Source: an uncultured Alphaproteobacteria bacterium
GTDB lineage: Bacteria > Pseudomonadota > Alphaproteobacteria > Rhodobacterales > Rhodobacteraceae
Assembly: GCA_902524655.1 (NCBI GenBank)
Contig: CABZEG010000001.1
Location: 1-64,000 of the forward strand
Reading direction: 5' to 3'
DNA: 64,000 bases
Positions 6,905 through 42,848 of the stretch are shown here, in pieces (the stretch's first letter is position 1; the number at the start of each line of letters is the position of its first letter). Below the pieces are notes generated by a model that was not told the origin of the DNA, ran no database searches, and saw nothing but the letters and a program-made list of their open reading frames with translations. Made by a program: the position numbers and the translations under genes.

Positions 6905-8035
6905 ATGAGTTTACCACTTGATGGAATATTAGTGGTATCAATGGAACAAGCTGTGGCTGGACCTTTTTGCTCTAATAGACTTAAGTTAGCGGGCGCCCGG
7001 GTGATTAAGATTGAGAGAAAGGATGGTGGGGATTTTGCTCGGGGTTATGACATAGCTGCTGACGGAGAAAGCTCATATTTCATATGGCTGAATCAAGGTA
7101 AAGAAAGCATCGCGCTGGACCTAAAGACAAAGAGTGATAGACACATATTCTTAAATATGGTTGCTAAAGCGGATATTTTTATTCAGAATTTCTCTCCGAC
7201 AACTGTAACTAAATTGAGCATCGATAGCTCCAGTTTAAAATCTATTAACCCAAGACTTATCTGTTGCGATATATCTGGCTATGGAGAGGCTCCTGAAATG
7301 ATGAAAAAAAAATCCTATGATTTACTAATTCAAGCCGAGAGTGGGCTTATAGATGTCTCTGGATCACCGGAGGGACTTGGTAGGATAGGAGTCTCAATTT
7401 GCGATATTGGCGCAGGAATGGCGGCACATGCAGGCATTGTAGAATCTTTGTTATTAAGAGAACGTTTTAATAAAGTTAAGGATGTTAAGATTTCTCTTTT
7501 TGATGTTGCTGCTGACTGGATGACTGTTCCATATATTCATAGCAAATATGGAGGGGCTGCTCCCAAAAGGGTTGGTCTAAAGCATCCTTCTATCGCACCT
7601 TATGGTGCTTTCCTGTGCTCGGAAAGTACTAGCTTTATCATTTCAATTCAGAACGAATTGGAGTGGAAAAGATTTTGTGTAGAGGTTCTTAAAACACCTT
7701 CCCTGGCAGAAGAAAATAAGTTTTCTAGTAATACACTCAGAGTAAAAAACAGGGATCTATTAGATGAAACAATTCAGGCTATCTTATTTTCACTGACCGA
7801 TGAAACTCTTAAAAATAGGCTTGAAGACGCGTCAATTGCGTATGGAAGATTAAATACTGTTAAGGATCTAGAAAGGCATTTGGCGTTGAAAAAAATCAGT
7901 GTGAGAAATTCACTAGATGACAGTTTAACAATTCCTTCTCCGCCCCTAATTTGGGAGAATTCGGAAAAAAAAGCTCCTAAATTTAATCAACACAATGAAC
8001 AATTGAGAAAAGAATTCAGTGACACAAAAAAATAA
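6905..8035 (+). CDS. CaiB/BaiF family CoA-transferase
   Basis: A 376-residue class III CoA-transferase. The N-terminus (LDGILVVSMEQAVAGPFCSN) and the pattern GESSYFIWLNQGKESIALDLK are typical. The conserved catalytic Asp is visible at residue 167 (SICDIGAGMAA). It moves CoA from a donor acyl-CoA to a carboxylic acid. Coupled to the acyl-CoA dehydrogenase one base upstream, it probably activates the acid that the dehydrogenase then oxidises; the substrate is unknown. Slightly shorter than many family members (about 400). Its end overlaps the sugar kinase start by 17 bases. Confidence 0.88.
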   Translation: MSLPLDGILVVSMEQAVAGPFCSNRLKLAGARVIKIERKDGGDFARGYDIAADGESSYFIWLNQGKESIALDLKTKSDRHIFLNMVAKADIFIQNFSPTTVTKLSIDSSSLKSINPRLICCDISGYGEAPEMMKKKSYDLLIQAESGLIDVSGSPEGLGRIGVSICDIGAGMAAHAGIVESLLLRERFNKVKDVKISLFDVAADWMTVPYIHSKYGGAAPKRVGLKHPSIAPYGAFLCSESTSFIISIQNELEWKRFCVEVLKTPSLAEENKFSSNTLRVKNRDLLDETIQAILFSLTDETLKNRLEDASIAYGRLNTVKDLERHLALKKISVRNSLDDSLTIPSPPLIWENSEKKAPKFNQHNEQLRKEFSDTKK

Positions 8036-8951
8036 ACATATTTTTGTTTTTGGAATTTTCGCGGTGGATTTATCTTTCTATGTTGATAAGAAAGTAAAAC
8101 CTGGAGAAACCATTATTGCTAAAAATTCGAACATAGGCCCTGGCGGCAAAGCCTCAAATCAGGCAATATCAGCAAGAAAACTTGGAGCACCCACCACATT
8201 AATTACTCGATTAGGGAATGATAATTTTAATAGATATGCACATGATATTTGGAGAAGAGAAAAACTCTTTGCGAGTACAACAATTGACAAAAATTTGCCT
8301 ACTGGTATGGCAGGAATATTTATTGATGATAAAACTGGTGAAAATAGTGTAATTGTTGATCCTGGTGCATCAGCTCATCTAAGTATAGATGACTTTTATT
8401 CGCAGAAATCAAAAATGAAAAAAGGAGACATCTTTTTAACTCAATTTGAACAGTCATCTGATACCACATTTGCAGTTTTAAAGGAAGCCAGAGAATTGGG
8501 TATGATTACAATTTTTAACCCAGCCCCATTCGGAAAAATTAGTAGGAAAGCTTACCAGTTTTGTGAAATTATTACTCCCAATGAAACAGAAGCTGAGCAA
8601 TTAACCAGTATCTCTCTAAAGGGCAAAAGAGACATTGAAAAGGCTATTAATAAAATCAGAGACCTGGGAGTTAAAAAAGTAATTATTACACTTGGAAAAA
8701 ACGGTGCTGCGTTTTTTGATGGAGAGAGAATATTGTTTTGCCCAGGCAACAAGTTTGGAAAAGTAATTGATACGACGGGTGCTGGCGATTGTTTCAATGG
8801 TGCTCTAGCAAGCGCTCTGTCTTTTGGAAAAGATTTGAGGCAATCAGTAGAATTTTCTTGTGCAGCAGCAGGTCTTAGCGTTTTAAAGAAAGGTACTGCT
8901 CAGTCAAGTCCGACCAGCGTTGAACTAAATAAAGCTCTGAAGGCTACTTAA
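8019..8951 (+). CDS. PfkB-family carbohydrate kinase (ribokinase-like)
   Basis: A 310-residue kinase with both PfkB signatures: GPGGKASNQAISARKLGA near residues 40-57 and DTTGAGDCFNGALASAL near 252, with the catalytic base Asp257 in GAGD. Closest in pattern to ribokinase (N-terminal HIFVFGIFAVDLSFYVDK, NPAPFG and TPNETEAEQL). It phosphorylates a sugar or nucleoside; ribose is the best guess, but no rbs transporter is nearby. GTG start inside the end of the CoA-transferase gene. Its tail overlaps the convergent TPP-enzyme gene by 8 bases. Confidence 0.82.
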   Translation: MTQKNKHIFVFGIFAVDLSFYVDKKVKPGETIIAKNSNIGPGGKASNQAISARKLGAPTTLITRLGNDNFNRYAHDIWRREKLFASTTIDKNLPTGMAGIFIDDKTGENSVIVDPGASAHLSIDDFYSQKSKMKKGDIFLTQFEQSSDTTFAVLKEARELGMITIFNPAPFGKISRKAYQFCEIITPNETEAEQLTSISLKGKRDIEKAINKIRDLGVKKVIITLGKNGAAFFDGERILFCPGNKFGKVIDTTGAGDCFNGALASALSFGKDLRQSVEFSCAAAGLSVLKKGTAQSSPTSVELNKALKAT

Positions 8952-27452: not shown

Positions 27453-28688
27453 TTAGAAGCACTTAGCCAAGTTGGTTGCCAAGTTTCGAATGAGGTTTTC
27501 ATATAGACTTGGGCCAGTTTCTAATTTAACGCCTAGTGGATCAATCACAGCTGTATTTGCGTTGGTCCCCTCAACAACCGCTTTAACTAGGCCCTGTTTG
27601 TATTGGGGCTCCGCAAGCACACACTCGACAGCTTCATCTACCACTCTTTTGCGTATCTCGGCAAGACGAGCGGGGCTTGGATCAGAAGCATCCCCTAATG
27701 ATATAGCTCCGGAAGCACTAATACCAAAATCTTTCTCAAAATACTGATAAGCATCATGAAAAACGACAAATTTCTTCTCTCTTATTGGATATAATATGGA
27801 ATTCACTTCAGATACCAATGCGTCAATGTTATCTCTAGCCGATTTTGCATTTGAAAAATAAGTTGCAGCATTATCAGGGTCAAGCTCCGACAATTTTGCT
27901 GCAATAGAATTCAACCATACTTTCGCAATTTTTGGTGACAACCAGGCATGAGGATCGTGCTCTCCGTGAGCATGGCCCTCGTGGTCATCATGATCATCAT
28001 GCTTTTTCTTGCCATGGTCATGATCGTCATGGTCATCATGCTTCTTCTTGCCATGATCGTGATCATCGTGGTCGTCATGCTTCTTCTTACCATGGTCATG
28101 ATCATCGTGATCATCATGCTTCTTCTTATCATGGTCGTGATCATCGTGGTCGTCATGCTTCTTCTTACCATGGTCATGATCATCGTGATCATCATGCTTC
28201 TTCTTATCATGGTCGTGATCATCGTGGTCGTCATGCTTCTTCTTACCATGGTCATGATCATCGTGATCATCATGCTTCTTCTTACCATGGTCATCATGAT
28301 CGTCGTGATCGCCATGGTCATGTGCTTCGAATAGCGCTCCCTCGCGGAAACTGAGAAGTTCTATGCCATCAACACCTAGAAGAGAAGTTATAGAAGCGTC
28401 TTTCGCTAAACTTTCCAGACCATTTTCCAGCCACGGTGTAAGATCCTCTCCTATCCAAAAAACAACATCAGCATCTTCCAATGACTTTGCATTAGAGGGT
28501 TTAAGTTGATATTCGTGCGGGGATGCTCCTGCTGGCATAATCAAGTCTGGTTTACCCACACCTTTCATTACACTTGAGACTAGTGAATGGACGGGGGCGA
28601 TGTCTACAGTAACCTTCGGCACATCTGCAACTAGCATACTGGTGCTCAATAGAAACGCTGACGTTGTTGAAAGGAATTTATTAGACAT
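27453..28688 (-). CDS. znuA: zinc ABC transporter periplasmic binding protein ZnuA
   Basis: 411 residues. Signal peptide MSNKFLSTTSAFLLSTSMLVA, then zinc ligands in APVHSLVSSVM, SPHEYQ, HDPHAWLSP and FHDAYQYF. A very long His/Asp-rich loop occupies residues about 120-245: a 13-residue unit, HDDHDDHDHGKKK, repeated about eight times. It scavenges zinc in the periplasm. ATG 28688 has GGAGAG six bases upstream, so the ORF-track start at 28880 is wrong. It diverges from zur and is probably repressed by Zur in zinc-replete cells. Confidence 0.94.
   Translation of the reverse strand: MSNKFLSTTSAFLLSTSMLVADVPKVTVDIAPVHSLVSSVMKGVGKPDLIMPAGASPHEYQLKPSNAKSLEDADVVFWIGEDLTPWLENGLESLAKDASITSLLGVDGIELLSFREGALFEAHDHGDHDDHDDHGKKKHDDHDDHDHGKKKHDDHDDHDHDKKKHDDHDDHDHGKKKHDDHDDHDHDKKKHDDHDDHDHGKKKHDDHDDHDHGKKKHDDHDDHDHGKKKHDDHDDHEGHAHGEHDPHAWLSPKIAKVWLNSIAAKLSELDPDNAATYFSNAKSARDNIDALVSEVNSILYPIREKKFVVFHDAYQYFEKDFGISASGAISLGDASDPSPARLAEIRKRVVDEAVECVLAEPQYKQGLVKAVVEGTNANTAVIDPLGVKLETGPSLYENLIRNLATNLAKCF
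28002..28313. repeat. 39-bp tandem repeat coding the ZnuA His-rich loop
   Basis: Eight 39-base units start at 28002, 28041, 28080, 28119, 28158, 28197, 28236 and 28275. Units at 28080, 28158 and 28236 are identical to each other, as are those at 28119 and 28197, giving an A-B-A-B-A pattern, so there is a 78-base higher-order repeat from recent duplication. Length is divisible by three, so copy changes keep the frame. Confidence 0.95.
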
Positions 28689-28716
28689 TTGGCTCTCCAT
28701 GAGGTATTTGTATTGG

Positions 28717-28753
28717 TGTGTTATGTTATAACATGTAATGATATAACGTAACA
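28717..28753. promoter_or_regulatory. Zur-type operator region between znuA and zur
   Basis: TTATGTTATAACATGTAA contains the perfect 12-base palindrome ATGTTATAACAT (28723-28734). A second, overlapping, imperfect copy is TGTAATGATATAACGTAACA (28734-28753). Both resemble the ATGTTATAACAT core of Zur boxes. The region sits upstream of znuA on one side and zur on the other, so it probably gives zinc-dependent repression both ways. Confidence 0.8.
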
Positions 28754-28795
28754 TCTTAACAAAGTAAAGATCAATTCTACAGAGCGCGCATTCGG

Positions 28796-29299
28796 ATGAA
28801 AAAAAAGAAAAAAAACGAAAATTCTTCAAAGATATTTGAAGGTCATGACCATGGAGCTTGCTTTGGTGACGCGATAACACTAATCGAGGATTATTTCATC
28901 GAGAAAAAATTACAACTAACTCCTTTACGACGAAAAGTTTTTGAAATTTTAATCGAGGATCACAAGCCTCTTGGCGCTTATGAGATCCTTGATAGTTTAG
29001 GGAAGGCAGGTTTTTCATCATCTCCACCTATAGCGTATCGAGTTCTTGACTTTTTAATGGAACATGGATTTGTTCATAAAGTGCAGGGTTTAAATGCCTT
29101 TATTGCCTGTTCAAACCCAGAGCACTCGCATTTTCCGACATTTGTTATCTGTCGAAAATGTGAGAAAGTTGCAGAAGTCAGTGACGAGAAAACCAGGCTT
29201 AATCTATCGAGTCCCGAAATAACAGATTTCAAAATTGAAAAAACCACTATTGAATTGACTGGAATTTGTAGCACTTGCGAAAATGCAGAGATCAGATAA
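28796..29299 (+). CDS. zur: zinc uptake regulator Zur (Fur family)
   Basis: 167 residues. N-terminal winged helix (LTPLRRKVFEILIEDHKPLGAYEILDSL), the family's PPIAYRVLDFLMEHG, and the two structural-zinc CxxC pairs CRKC and CSTC. GHDHGAC near the start is typical of alphaproteobacterial Zur. It represses zinc uptake when zinc is bound. Its stop overlaps the znuC start by one base; the znu genes downstream follow in one transcript. Confidence 0.92.
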   Translation: MKKKKKNENSSKIFEGHDHGACFGDAITLIEDYFIEKKLQLTPLRRKVFEILIEDHKPLGAYEILDSLGKAGFSSSPPIAYRVLDFLMEHGFVHKVQGLNAFIACSNPEHSHFPTFVICRKCEKVAEVSDEKTRLNLSSPEITDFKIEKTTIELTGICSTCENAEIR

Positions 29300-33916: not shown

Positions 33917-33970
33917 ATGGTGAGCCCGACAGGGTTCGAACCTGTGACCCACTGATTAAAAGTCAGTTGC
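33917..33970. repeat. att site copy: 54-bp tRNA-Lys 3' fragment (left end of the element)
   Basis: ATGGTGAGCCCGACAGGG... to ...GTCAGTTGC is identical over 54 bases to the 3' part of the tRNA-Lys gene at 42772-42825. The D arm and 5' acceptor strand are missing, so this is a displaced tRNA end, not a working gene. It marks the left junction of an integrative element. Confidence 0.95.
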
Positions 33971-34089: not shown

Positions 34090-35334
34090 TTGGTAAAAAT
34101 CACAGAAAAATACTTAGAAAAAATAAAGCCAGGCACCAAAGACCAATATCACCGAGATGACACATTAAAAGGCTTTGCCGTCAAAGTAACGCCAACCGGC
34201 CGAATATCTTTTATAGCCGAAGGAAGAGTAAGAAAAGGTAGGTCTCGACGCATCACTTTAGGGCGACATCCTTTTCTTGCAATGAAGGAAGCAAGAGAGC
34301 TAGCTATGAATAATCTCAATGAAATGCAAAAAGGAATCGACCCAGTATTGAAAGAAAGGGAGGAGAGAGGAAAACAGAAAGCTTTATCAAAAACATTAAA
34401 TGATATTTTTCATGAGTATCTATCCCTAAAAGCTCTCAAGCCTAATACCAAGTATGATTATGTGAACACTTTCTTATTAACTTTTTCAGAGTTAGGGAAA
34501 AGACCTATTAGAAGTATTTCTAGGCAGGAAATCTTAGAACTCTATTTTAAGATTCAAAGCGAGAGAGGGGATTCTACCGCAGCAAAATTCAAAAGGATTG
34601 GTTCAGCTATTTTCAAATTTGCAATGGCTGATGAAGTTGATGGTGAGAGGCTGATTAAAGAAAACCCTTTTAACATAATAACTGAGAAAGGAATAAAAAT
34701 TCCTTTGAAGAAGAGAGCTACCTTTCTAACTAATACAGACATCTCAAAGCTTATTACTTTCTATATGAATTTTGAAAACTGGCCCTCTCCTTCGAAACAT
34801 GGAGTGACAAAGCAGGGAATAAATTACGTAATCCTTTTAATGACAACAGGGCTAAGAAAAAGTGAAGCCTTGAGACTTAAGTGGAATCATGTTGATTGGA
34901 CTAATAAGACCTTCACAGCATTTGAGACTAAAAACAGTTCAAATCATATCGTACCAATGTCGACTACTACTGAATGGATTTTAAATGAGCAGCAAAAAAT
35001 TTCACTAGATAGTCCCTACGTATTTCCTTCTCAGAAAACTGGGATGCATATGACGGAACCAAAGTCGCAATTATTTAAAATAAGACGCGCAACAAAATTA
35101 AACTTTACCTTCCATGATTTAAGAAGAACCTTTGCTACTCATGCCGAAGCATTGGGGCAATCACATGAGCTAATAAGAAAAGCTCTCAATCATAAATCTG
35201 GTGGAGGGATAACATCTCAGTATATAATAACTCAAGTTGAAACTTTAAGACCTGTTTTTCAATCGGTTGCTGAAGGCTACAGAACTTACTATGACCCAGA
35301 CTGGAGATATGACTTAATAGATGAGGGGGACTAA
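34090..35334 (+). CDS. int: tyrosine-type site-specific integrase (P4-like)
   Basis: 414 residues. N-terminal DUF4102-like arm-binding domain (KGFAVKVTPTGRISFI, TLGRHPFLAMKEARELA), core-binding domain, and a catalytic domain with Arg256 (TTGLRKSEALRL), His342 and Arg345 (HDLRRTF) and the nucleophile Tyr378 (TSQYI). All the catalytic residues are present. It catalyses integration into and excision from tRNA-Lys. TTG start, ten bases after the last arm repeat, which suggests it may repress its own gene. Confidence 0.93.
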   Translation: MVKITEKYLEKIKPGTKDQYHRDDTLKGFAVKVTPTGRISFIAEGRVRKGRSRRITLGRHPFLAMKEARELAMNNLNEMQKGIDPVLKEREERGKQKALSKTLNDIFHEYLSLKALKPNTKYDYVNTFLLTFSELGKRPIRSISRQEILELYFKIQSERGDSTAAKFKRIGSAIFKFAMADEVDGERLIKENPFNIITEKGIKIPLKKRATFLTNTDISKLITFYMNFENWPSPSKHGVTKQGINYVILLMTTGLRKSEALRLKWNHVDWTNKTFTAFETKNSSNHIVPMSTTTEWILNEQQKISLDSPYVFPSQKTGMHMTEPKSQLFKIRRATKLNFTFHDLRRTFATHAEALGQSHELIRKALNHKSGGGITSQYIITQVETLRPVFQSVAEGYRTYYDPDWRYDLIDEGD

Positions 35335-35669: not shown

Positions 35670-36023
35670 ATGAAAAGATTCGGTTCATATATACGAGACT
35701 GTCGAGAGGCACTCAATAAAGAAAGTAAAGGTTACAGTGTACGGAAAGTTGCTGAGAAGATTGGGGTGGAGCCCGCATTCCTTAGCAAGGTTGAGAGAGA
35801 CATAGTCCCTCCCCCTTCAGAGAAGAAGATTGTAGCTCTGGCAAAGGTGCTTGATGAGGACCCAGATATCCTACTTGCGATGGCCGGCAAAGTGTCCACA
35901 GACCTATTAAAGATAATACAAAAGCGCCCTGTTATCTTTGCTGATTTAATTCGCAGACTAAAGAAAGAGCCGGACCATGCTGTTTTAAAAATAGTAAGAG
36001 AAGTAACAGACGGAGAATGGTAA
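35670..36023 (+). CDS. XRE-family helix-turn-helix regulator
   Basis: 117 residues. HTH over residues about 4-60 (YSVRKVAEKIGVEPAFLSKVERD, then KIVALAKVLDEDPDILL). A helical C-terminal part (LLKIIQKRPVIFADLIRRLKK) may dimerise. It heads a compact gene set: the next three genes follow at 12-, 14- and 3-base gaps. It probably represses its own cassette through the palindrome overlapping its promoter. Confidence 0.85.
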   Translation: MKRFGSYIRDCREALNKESKGYSVRKVAEKIGVEPAFLSKVERDIVPPPSEKKIVALAKVLDEDPDILLAMAGKVSTDLLKIIQKRPVIFADLIRRLKKEPDHAVLKIVREVTDGEW

Positions 36024-37879: not shown

Positions 37880-38533
37880 ATGACTATTAAGAACACATTA
37901 TTGAAGATAAATTTCGGTTTGGTCTTTATTCTGGGATTTTATTCAAATGCTTTTTCTAACTCTCTAGGTTGTGAAAAATCAAATTACTGGTATGCATTCA
38001 ATCACCCTAAACTTGAAGCAGCAAATTATAATGACCTCGTTCCGAACAAAGATAGCTCTACTATCAAGTTAAAAGGCTACGTTTACTATATAAATTTAAA
38101 CCAGTACATATTTGATGAGTGCAACATTCCAATTGTAGAGCCCATATTTTTCAATGAAAAGTATCGGTATATTATACTTTCAGATTCTTGGAGGCAGGGC
38201 CTGAACGTCAGAGAAAAAATAAAGGAATGCATTGATGTACCAGTTCAATTTATGTCACGGATTATGGTAACTGTGAAAATTTATCCAAAAAAAATTTCAG
38301 ATTTAAAAATTAAAGCTGAGAATGATAGGAATACAAAACTAGATACAAACGAGAACTTATTTCCACATCCTAAAAATATAAAGGTTTGTGAGGCAGAGAT
38401 AGAAGTTGCAGCTCTAATTAAACCTGAACTAGACATACCTCGATATATTCCAGAGGGGGCTCCACGTGAAGACTTTGTGCTTGCCCCAACTTTAAGAGTG
38501 ACATCGATTGGGTCAATCAAGAAAATAGACTAG
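37880..38533 (+). CDS. secreted protein, unknown function
   Basis: 217 residues. Signal peptide NTLLKINFGLVFILGFYSNAFS, then a mature part with Cys in LGCEKSN, DECNIP, KECIDV and KVCEAE (four Cys, possibly two disulfides) and Pro-rich ends. Unknown family; predicted periplasmic. Separated from the cassette by 72 bases. Confidence 0.6.
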   Translation: MTIKNTLLKINFGLVFILGFYSNAFSNSLGCEKSNYWYAFNHPKLEAANYNDLVPNKDSSTIKLKGYVYYINLNQYIFDECNIPIVEPIFFNEKYRYIILSDSWRQGLNVREKIKECIDVPVQFMSRIMVTVKIYPKKISDLKIKAENDRNTKLDTNENLFPHPKNIKVCEAEIEVAALIKPELDIPRYIPEGAPREDFVLAPTLRVTSIGSIKKID

Positions 38534-38590
38534 TGTAATGTTATGAAATGTCGCATTTGATAATCTGGAAACTTCTGCTACTTTATCATC

Positions 38591-38779
38591 ATGTGTATAA
38601 TGAATAGTTTAATGTTTCTTGGCATATTAGGATATCTTGGCTTCAAAGGAGCCAGGTGGGTTGTTAAGACTGTTTACCAAAACAGAACAGCAATCTCTAA
38701 CAATATCTACCAAGCCTACAATCTACCTGAGACGTTGTATCAGCGTGTAAGAGTAGACGGAAAAAGAGACTATAGATAA
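38591..38779 (+). CDS. very small membrane protein, unknown
   Basis: 62 residues: MNSLMFLGILGYLGFKGARWVVK is a short hydrophobic or amphipathic N-terminal helix, followed by a basic, polar tail. Could be real or chance; the codon pattern fits its neighbours but there is no clear ribosome site. Confidence 0.4.
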   Translation: MCIMNSLMFLGILGYLGFKGARWVVKTVYQNRTAISNNIYQAYNLPETLYQRVRVDGKRDYR

Positions 38780-38793
38780 AATTTAGACCTAAG

Positions 38794-39078
38794 TTAAGTT
38801 TTAGAACCCTGACTAGGTGGTTTTAAGACCTCGTCGATAACTAAGTGTCTAAGCTCCTGCATATCAGGATTGTCACTTAGTTTTTTCAAGGCTCGTGCCT
38901 CAATCTGACGGACACGCTCATAAGAGATGCCAAAAATCTTTGCGATTTGATGAAGTGTCCAAGTCTCTTGATTTGGCATATCAATTCCAAAACGCATCTT
39001 TAAAATCAACAGTTCACGTTCTGTCATTTTGTCTAACTGACTCAAATTATTAACAGCCTTTGTAATTCTTATTAACAC
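38794..39078 (-). CDS. stand-alone sigma-70 region 4 protein
   Basis: 94 residues. MTERELLILKMRFGIDM ... TLHQIAKIFGISYERVRQIEARALKKL is region 4 of an RpoD-type sigma factor (the -35-binding helix-turn-helix). Regions 1 to 3 are absent and no matching sequence lies upstream, so it is a separate short protein, not a frameshifted sigma gene. It could compete with the host sigma for RNA polymerase or act on its own promoters. GTG 39078 keeps the helix before the motif; ATG 39027 is possible. It overlaps or closely follows the Sel1 gene. Confidence 0.75.
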   Translation of the reverse strand: MLIRITKAVNNLSQLDKMTERELLILKMRFGIDMPNQETWTLHQIAKIFGISYERVRQIEARALKKLSDNPDMQELRHLVIDEVLKPPSQGSKT

Positions 39079-39649
39079 ATTCTCTTGCTAAATCTTGTGC
39101 CTTCTCTATTTGGGATGGGGTCATTTTTTTTGCCACTAAATCTCTGTTATTTGATGCGTCTTCAAAACCATTTGCAGCAGCTATATTTAACCACATGTGA
39201 GCATAGACCAAGTCCTGTAATACACCTAGCCCTTCTTTATACAAAAGTCCTAGATTGTTCTGCGCTTTTGAATATCCCCCTTCAGCAGCAATTTTAAACC
39301 ATTGAACTGCTTCTTTATAGTCTTGGATAGTACCTTGCCCTTCTTTGAGCATAACTGCTAGATTAAACTGTGCATGTATATATCCCTGTTTAGCAGCAAG
39401 CGTGTGCCACTTAACTGCTTCTTTATAGTCTTGAATAGTTCCTTGCCCATTATAAAACATTTGCGCCAAATTATACTGTGCTACTGCGCCTCCTTTCTCG
39501 GCTAATCTTTTAAACCCCTCGAAAGCAATGGCGTAGTCACCTTTTTTATATGCATTAAAAGATTTTTGGAAGTCATCACCCCAACTCAAACTAACACTCA
39601 ATGATAAAAATAAAATGGTACCTGGTATATGTTTCACAAGAAGATTCAT
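39050..39649 (-). CDS. secreted Sel1-repeat protein
   Basis: 199 residues with signal peptide (TILFLSLSVSLSWG). Four or so Sel1-like repeats, for example AVKWHTLAAKQGYIHAQFNLAVM, GQGTIQDYKEAVQWFKIAAEGG and AHMWLNIAAANG. Such repeat proteins bind partners in the periplasm. It is the first gene of a two-gene minus-strand unit with the sigma region-4 protein. Confidence 0.85.
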   Translation of the reverse strand: MNLLVKHIPGTILFLSLSVSLSWGDDFQKSFNAYKKGDYAIAFEGFKRLAEKGGAVAQYNLAQMFYNGQGTIQDYKEAVKWHTLAAKQGYIHAQFNLAVMLKEGQGTIQDYKEAVQWFKIAAEGGYSKAQNNLGLLYKEGLGVLQDLVYAHMWLNIAAANGFEDASNNRDLVAKKMTPSQIEKAQDLARECVNKNYKGC

Positions 39650-39737
39650 CTCAAAAGTATCTCCTACAGTTTAAGATTTTGCAACATAGAGGTGTTTAAG
39701 GTATTTTAGAGACAATTTATTATTGAGGAGATAGAAA

Positions 39738-40939: not shown

Positions 40940-41408
40940 AAGGGTTATTTGAGTTATAAGACAAAACCTTCAACTTTTCTAACATTTCTGAGGTTGGAGA
41001 AAACCTCGTAGACTGCCCTCTACCCCTCTCTTTAGAGTAACCTCCTTTCGTCTCCTCTTCAATATAGGAGAGAGCGAGGAGACCCTCATAGACTGCCCTT
41101 ACCTGTCTGTATGTTAATCGTGGTCCCTCTTCTTCAGTCTTCTTGGAGTAATATCCACTCCTCAGCTGCACCATCAACTCATGGTTAGGAACTTTACGAA
41201 TATGTTTGTCTATCTCTACTAAGAACCAGGAGATGGCGTGATTAAAGTTCCGTAACGCTTCCTCTGTGCGTTGGTTCTTTCTGTAAAACTTGGGGGCAAC
41301 GGAAGTGGAACTCGAAGAACTCTTCTCGGTTGCAACTTTAAGTTCCCACTCTCTTATCTCTTCTGATAACGCATTGACCAACCCTTCGAGTCTTTCTTGG
41401 GTTATCAT
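40929..41408 (-). CDS. putative winged-helix protein, possible replication initiator
   Basis: 159 residues. N-terminal helical part with a Ser-rich linker (SSSSST), and a C-terminal part RLTYRQVRAVYEGLLALSYIEEE ... TRFSPTSEMLEKL that looks like a winged helix (helix, turn, helix, beta wing with TRF). Similar patterns occur in plasmid replication initiators and phage regulators, but I cannot assign a family. GGGAG lies ten bases before the ATG. The palindrome-rich region right upstream could be its target. Confidence 0.5.
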   Translation of the reverse strand: MITQERLEGLVNALSEEIREWELKVATEKSSSSSTSVAPKFYRKNQRTEEALRNFNHAISWFLVEIDKHIRKVPNHELMVQLRSGYYSKKTEEEGPRLTYRQVRAVYEGLLALSYIEEETKGGYSKERGRGQSTRFSPTSEMLEKLKVLSYNSNNPSIS

Positions 41409-42771: not shown

Positions 42772-42772
42772 A

Positions 42773-42848
42773 TGGTGAGCCCGACAGGGTTCGAACCTGT
42801 GACCCACTGATTAAAAGTCAGTTGCTCTACCAACTGAGCTACGGGCCC
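42773..42848 (-). tRNA. tRNA-Lys (TTT), element attachment site
   Basis: 76 nt including an encoded CCA. On the minus strand it starts GGGCCCG and ends CGGGCTCACCA. D arm GCTC/GAGC, anticodon stem ACTGA-CTTTTAA-TCAGT with anticodon TTT, T arm ACAGG-TTCGAAC-CCTGT are all intact. The 3' part is repeated at 33917-33970, so the element uses it as its target. Confidence 0.97.

Follow-up and report, generated by a model that had tools for sequence, protein, structure and literature searches.

The open reading frame (ORF) at 38794-39078 (minus strand) of the window, a term used here for the entire 64,000-nucleotide stretch of DNA analyzed, codes for a stand-alone sigma-70 region 4 of phage type, an assignment that is well supported with respect to both the identity of the gene and its origin. 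The phage family to which the protein belongs, together with its copies on bacterial islands, looks undescribed in the collections and literature searched; a literature search on stand-alone region 4 proteins found nothing relevant.

The region 4 gene and its genomic island

Read from a GTG start, the gene comprises 94 codons, and its 94-residue product matches Pfam Sigma70_r4 with E=1.3e-16 (60 bits) over positions 2-48 of the 50-position profile. Regions 4.1 and 4.2 are both complete, and according to Pfam all other sigma regions, including region 2, are absent; the first-pass annotation, which had described a complete RpoD-like region 4 without other sigma regions, was thereby confirmed. 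Identity to the RpoD regions is 37-44%. An AlphaFold model of the protein (mean pLDDT of 72, with an average of 94 for residues 41-60) has its helices arranged as in sigma4, and its best matches in the PDB are to region 4 of E. coli sigma70 in the holoenzyme. Two start codons are candidates, the GTG at 39078 and an in-frame ATG at 39027 that would give 77 aa; in the homologue from another genome of the genus (G003), an ATG preceded by AGGAG would likewise yield 77 aa.

The gene is part of an integrated element of 8.9 kb, whose tyrosine integrase gene (34090-35334, plus strand, TTG start; Pfam Phage_integrase, 3.3e-20, and Arm-DNA-bind_3, 2.5e-11) stands beside a 54-bp attachment repeat at 33917-33970, an exact copy of the 3' end of tRNA-Lys. 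The second copy of this exact 54-bp repeat (42772-42825) is located within the tRNA-Lys (ttt) itself, the integration target, which ARAGORN places at 42773-42848 on the minus strand. The integrase gene and the second copy of the tRNA 3' end identify the element as a tRNA-integrated island, and the mobile-element setting initially proposed from the letters alone was borne out by the integrase and the repeat pair. The element further encodes a Cro/C1-type helix-turn-helix regulator (35670-36023, plus strand; Pfam HTH_3, 1.3e-8), an RDD membrane protein, a Sel1-repeat protein, and proteins without any family. Searches against Pfam, PHROGs, and NCBIfam recognized neither phage structural genes nor genes for helper-dependent packaging or phage hijacking in the element, and its integrase and a 357-aa marker protein, which were searched as a sign of packaging, had no match in the viral contigs. 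Elsewhere in the window, the gene at 27453-28880 encodes a zinc-uptake-like binding protein in which a His/Asp/Lys motif (HDDHDHGKKK...) is repeated over a long tandem array.

The Sel1-repeat ORF (39050-39649, minus strand; Pfam Sel1, E=2.7e-29, three stretches) encodes a protein with a hydrophobic, signal-like segment at its N-terminus, as read from the sequence. Its 3' end has 29 bp in common with the 5' end of the region 4 ORF as read from the GTG, and the identical overlap is present in a third genome of the genus (G012, L032/L033). The two genes had originally been read as a pair, but their pairing as a functional unit found no support: Sel1 and region 4 occur together in only two genomes, that of the window and G012, both of which carry the same homologous 1.2-kb module, and the remaining copies have other neighbors. 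The gene before region 4 is FtsZ/tubulin-like in G003 and an unrelated 234-residue gene in phages. Because the region 4 gene of G003 has its own AGGAG, is preceded by the FtsZ/tubulin-like gene, and lacks Sel1, the pairing is not general; an obligatory pair was rejected, as the G003 and phage copies have no Sel1 partner, and the association is regarded as incidental.

A 62-aa ORF (38591-38779, plus strand), for which no known family was found, is convergent with the region 4 gene. It is 77-92% conserved across 16 of the 22 genomes of the genus, sometimes in two copies, and another copy is located on contig C20 of the genome from which the window derives (G000). As a dedicated partner of region 4 it was rejected, given this wide distribution and its occurrence in other contexts.

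Relatives on bacterial islands and in phages

The first-pass annotation had called for a search for similar short genes, and such genes were found on a tRNA-Thr island of G012, in G003, and in phages. Within the genus, 3 of 22 genomes carry a region 4 homologue: G000, G012 (85% identical), and G003 (74%). At a stringent cut-off, 397 genomes sampled from the family and 385 from the class yielded no homologue apart from the window's own. Two of the three bacterial copies sit on tRNA-integrated islands. In G012, taken to be the single-cell genome AG-343-G05, the gene is positioned between tRNA-Thr (L033, 10707) and a 63-bp repeat of the tRNA 3' end (7930). The tRNA-Thr island as a whole spans 2.8 kb (L033, 7930-10769), with 63-bp repeats at both ends; no integrase was seen among its ORFs, and it is a minimal island that is probably mobilized in trans. 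A stretch of the window at 38533-39733, comprising Sel1, region 4, and the convergent 62-aa ORF, is homologous to this island (blastn, about 72-82% DNA identity), and an additional 44-bp blastn match links window positions 40970-41013 to sequence adjoining the G012 module. The two islands are therefore related by descent, with rearrangement. In G003, the 192-aa FtsZ/tubulin-like gene lies immediately 5' of the region 4 gene (L034, 8800-9378); the gene before that one (7611-8750) encodes an RNase T exonuclease domain. The FtsZ-like neighbor gave no useful match in the viral contigs searched.

Detection of the phage homologues required an alignment as the query against IMG/VR contigs, most of which are fragments; a single-sequence scan of viral contigs returned no match. 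At 59-67% identity, these phage genes are the closest relatives outside the genus, which substantiates the tie to phages drawn in the first pass. In the phages, region 4 is preceded, in order, by genes for an AAA ATPase, a 350-aa protein, a DUF2201 metallopeptidase/VWA protein, and the 234-aa protein, and is followed by genes for a small helix-turn-helix-like protein whose tail is hydrophobic, a 93-aa protein, and a DNA polymerase I-like protein. The first of these downstream genes, which in those close phages that were read lies immediately 3' of region 4, is exemplified by L053 5218-5538, whose 106-aa product matches a helix-turn-helix weakly and carries a hydrophobic segment at its C-terminus. 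One 55-kb contig encodes a large terminase, portal/adaptor, major head protein, internal virion protein, and endolysin, and thus represents a podovirus-like phage; compared with isolate phages, its polymerase is at best 34% identical and its terminase at best 40%. A scan with the 234-aa neighbor identified 37 phage loci, and in all 16 loci with at least 54% identity to this gene, region 4 is located immediately 3' of it. The region 4 gene is a fixed part of this close phage group, which is apparently marine, judging from contig and host context. No member of the family was recognized in the isolate-phage collection. Named matches in the isolate-phage and plasmid collections were sigma factors, along with a few plasmid records of sigma-factor-like helix-turn-helix proteins, and neither Rhizobium phage RHph_TM3_14A nor Pseudomonas phage KPP25, which have the polymerase in common with the phage group, gave a match.

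Full-length members of the family score 141-182 bits against the family profile, and one truncated copy scores 135, compared with at most 67 for every sigma factor tested. The family is distinguished by a two-residue loop insertion between region 4.1 and the helix-turn-helix, where most members read M-P-N-[EQ]-[EQ]; the window protein has this insertion and a profile score clearly above those of sigma factors. Six distant phage loci (L131, L143, L145, L146, L149, and L150) contain a short stand-alone region 4 ORF; in four of these, namely L143, L145, L149, and L150, the last two being identical, the full insertion is missing. The short ORFs of L143, L145, and L149, each close to a gene related to that for the 234-aa protein, are possible ancestral forms. 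Phylogenetic analysis placed the family in one clade apart from sigma factors (support 99/95). In a tree with all phage rows, a 99/99 clade unites the three bacterial copies and branches among phage genes, with the more distant phage genes and the sigma factors outside. Transfer from phage to island would be the simpler direction; the fork on which this depends has moderate support (86/75).

At the level of individual residues, R554, R562, L573, E585, R586, R588, and Q589 of sigma70 contact -35 DNA, and the residues aligned with them are retained by each of the three bacterial copies and by almost every close phage copy. At the position aligned with R584, the close phages have Lys or Arg, whereas the bacterial copies have Tyr or His; promoter specificity may therefore be altered or lost in the latter.

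Proposed function and competing explanations

We propose, with roughly even confidence, that the family consists of phage transcription regulators that dock at the beta-flap/-35 site of the host's RNA polymerase and that were later captured by islands. This reading is the most likely one because of analogy: phage regulators exploit the contact between region 4 and the beta flap (PMC3985653), and T4 gp33, a protein of 112 residues, is a sigma4 mimic that binds the flap and represses basal transcription (PMC2988020). The phage protein would sit where sigma region 4 normally sits, on the beta-flap tip above the -35 box, and would thereby weaken the use of -35 promoters by host sigma-70, steer the polymerase to chosen promoters, or both. 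The diversion or blocking of host RNA polymerase raised in the first-pass annotation is likewise a predicted effect. The island copies would be captured phage genes expressed as cargo, in the case of the window probably through translational coupling to Sel1. The main weakness of the docking model is that isolated region 4 holds the flap weakly in comparison with the grip of region 2 on the core (PMC3985653), which leaves competition by a free copy unexplained. Judging from ORF sizes, the phage may lack a single-subunit RNA polymerase of its own.

Region-4-like helix-turn-helix domains are common in phage transcription regulators. In the present family, the recognition helix, E-R-V-R-Q, is the best-kept part, as might be anticipated if the protein were a plain DNA-binding regulator whose helix-turn-helix recognizes -35-like operators on phage or element DNA, repressing or activating transcription with no need to engage the flap. 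Such a role is unlikely but deserves consideration: region 4.1 (LTERE...KMRFGID), which packs against the flap in sigma factors, is conserved as well as the recognition helix, no operator motif was identified, and canonical promoter-like sites in the phage piece scanned were fewer than in shuffles.

In bacteria, the gene might instead be an inert hitchhiker, namely captured phage DNA without function. The small number of carriers within the genus, the lack of homologues in the other sampled genera of the family and class, and the differing neighbors are all compatible with this idea, which is nevertheless quite improbable in light of the open frames and of dN values that stay well below dS whichever two of the three copies are compared. 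By the NG86 method, dN is 0.082 and dS 0.443 for G000 versus G012 outside the overlap (dN/dS about 0.19), and dN is 0.121 and dS 1.061 for G000 versus G003 (dN/dS about 0.11); the corresponding values for a phage pair, L053 versus L077, are 0.183 and 1.213. The region 4 gene is under purifying selection, although part of the signal among the island copies may date from the phages if islands were loaded more than once. Frameshifts or a lack of conservation in related elements, the signs of decay named in the first-pass annotation, were looked for, and intact homologues with dN well below dS were found instead. A decayed copy of RpoD was rejected, as the frame is intact and the family has its own clade and its own loop insertion.

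A further possibility, which we consider very doubtful, is that the protein constitutes one half of a split sigma factor and works with a separate region 2 protein. Precedents exist in SigO (sigma4) and RsoA (sigma2), separate proteins that act together (PMC8103513), and in T4 gp55, which together with gp33 can be viewed as a split sigma (PMC2988020). No stand-alone region 2 (PF04542) above the Pfam cut-off was found in phage contigs G101 and G111 or in genomes G000, G003, and G012, all of them incomplete contigs or drafts: the two phage contigs gave no region 2 match, and the bacterial matches above the cut-off fall in frames of at least 191 aa. For the neighbors scanned, neither Pfam nor PHROGs returned a region 2 match. 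With no region 2 partner detected by these profiles, which a very divergent partner might escape, a split sigma factor becomes less likely.

Finally, it is a remote conjecture that the islands turn a captured sigma4-like regulator against its source phage, or use it parasitically alongside that phage, such that the island copy, with Tyr or His at the R584 position, and the phage copy would compete for host RNA polymerase, and the phage program would be blocked or redirected, as anti-phage cargo or as a satellite trigger.

Comparison with known systems

A conserved phage family that consists of region 4 alone, with the DNA-reading helix kept and region 2 absent, would offer a direct test of whether a free sigma4 can reprogram RNA polymerase. 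It would also shed light on how transcription is controlled in an uncultured phage group without a sequenced isolate in the collection searched, and its recurrence on tRNA islands adds a clear example of how mobile islands of bacteria acquire a transcription regulator from phages. Among proposed marine phage satellites, tycheposons and VEIMEs are likewise tRNA-integrated islands with a tyrosine integrase and variable cargo; unlike these, the element of the window has no recognized phage-hijack or packaging gene, and its integrase and marker protein were not found in viral contigs.

Region 4 of RpoD (sigma-70) has the Sigma70_r4 Pfam domain and the fold in common with the family, which differs in being stand-alone, in its two-residue loop insertion, and in its separate clade. 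SigO similarly carries region 4 on its own polypeptide, but has RsoA as a partner, whereas none was detected for the family. Like the family, T4 gp33 is a phage protein of about 100 residues at the sigma4 position, which in the case of the family is predicted. However, gp33 does not read DNA and works together with gp55 and the sliding clamp (PMC2988020), whereas the family keeps most residues of the DNA-reading helix and no gp55-type region 2 partner was found for it; the kept DNA-contact residues suggest the opposite of the lack of DNA recognition in gp33. BFVD also contains short "sigma-70 region 4" proteins from uncultured Caudovirales (for example, A0A6J5LJJ3, 95 aa, and A0A6J5LKM7, 94 aa), which are likewise stand-alone and of similar length and, compared by fold match, show 28-34% identity. 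Phage proteins acting at the sigma4 position are an already-known kind, of which the present family would be a variant.
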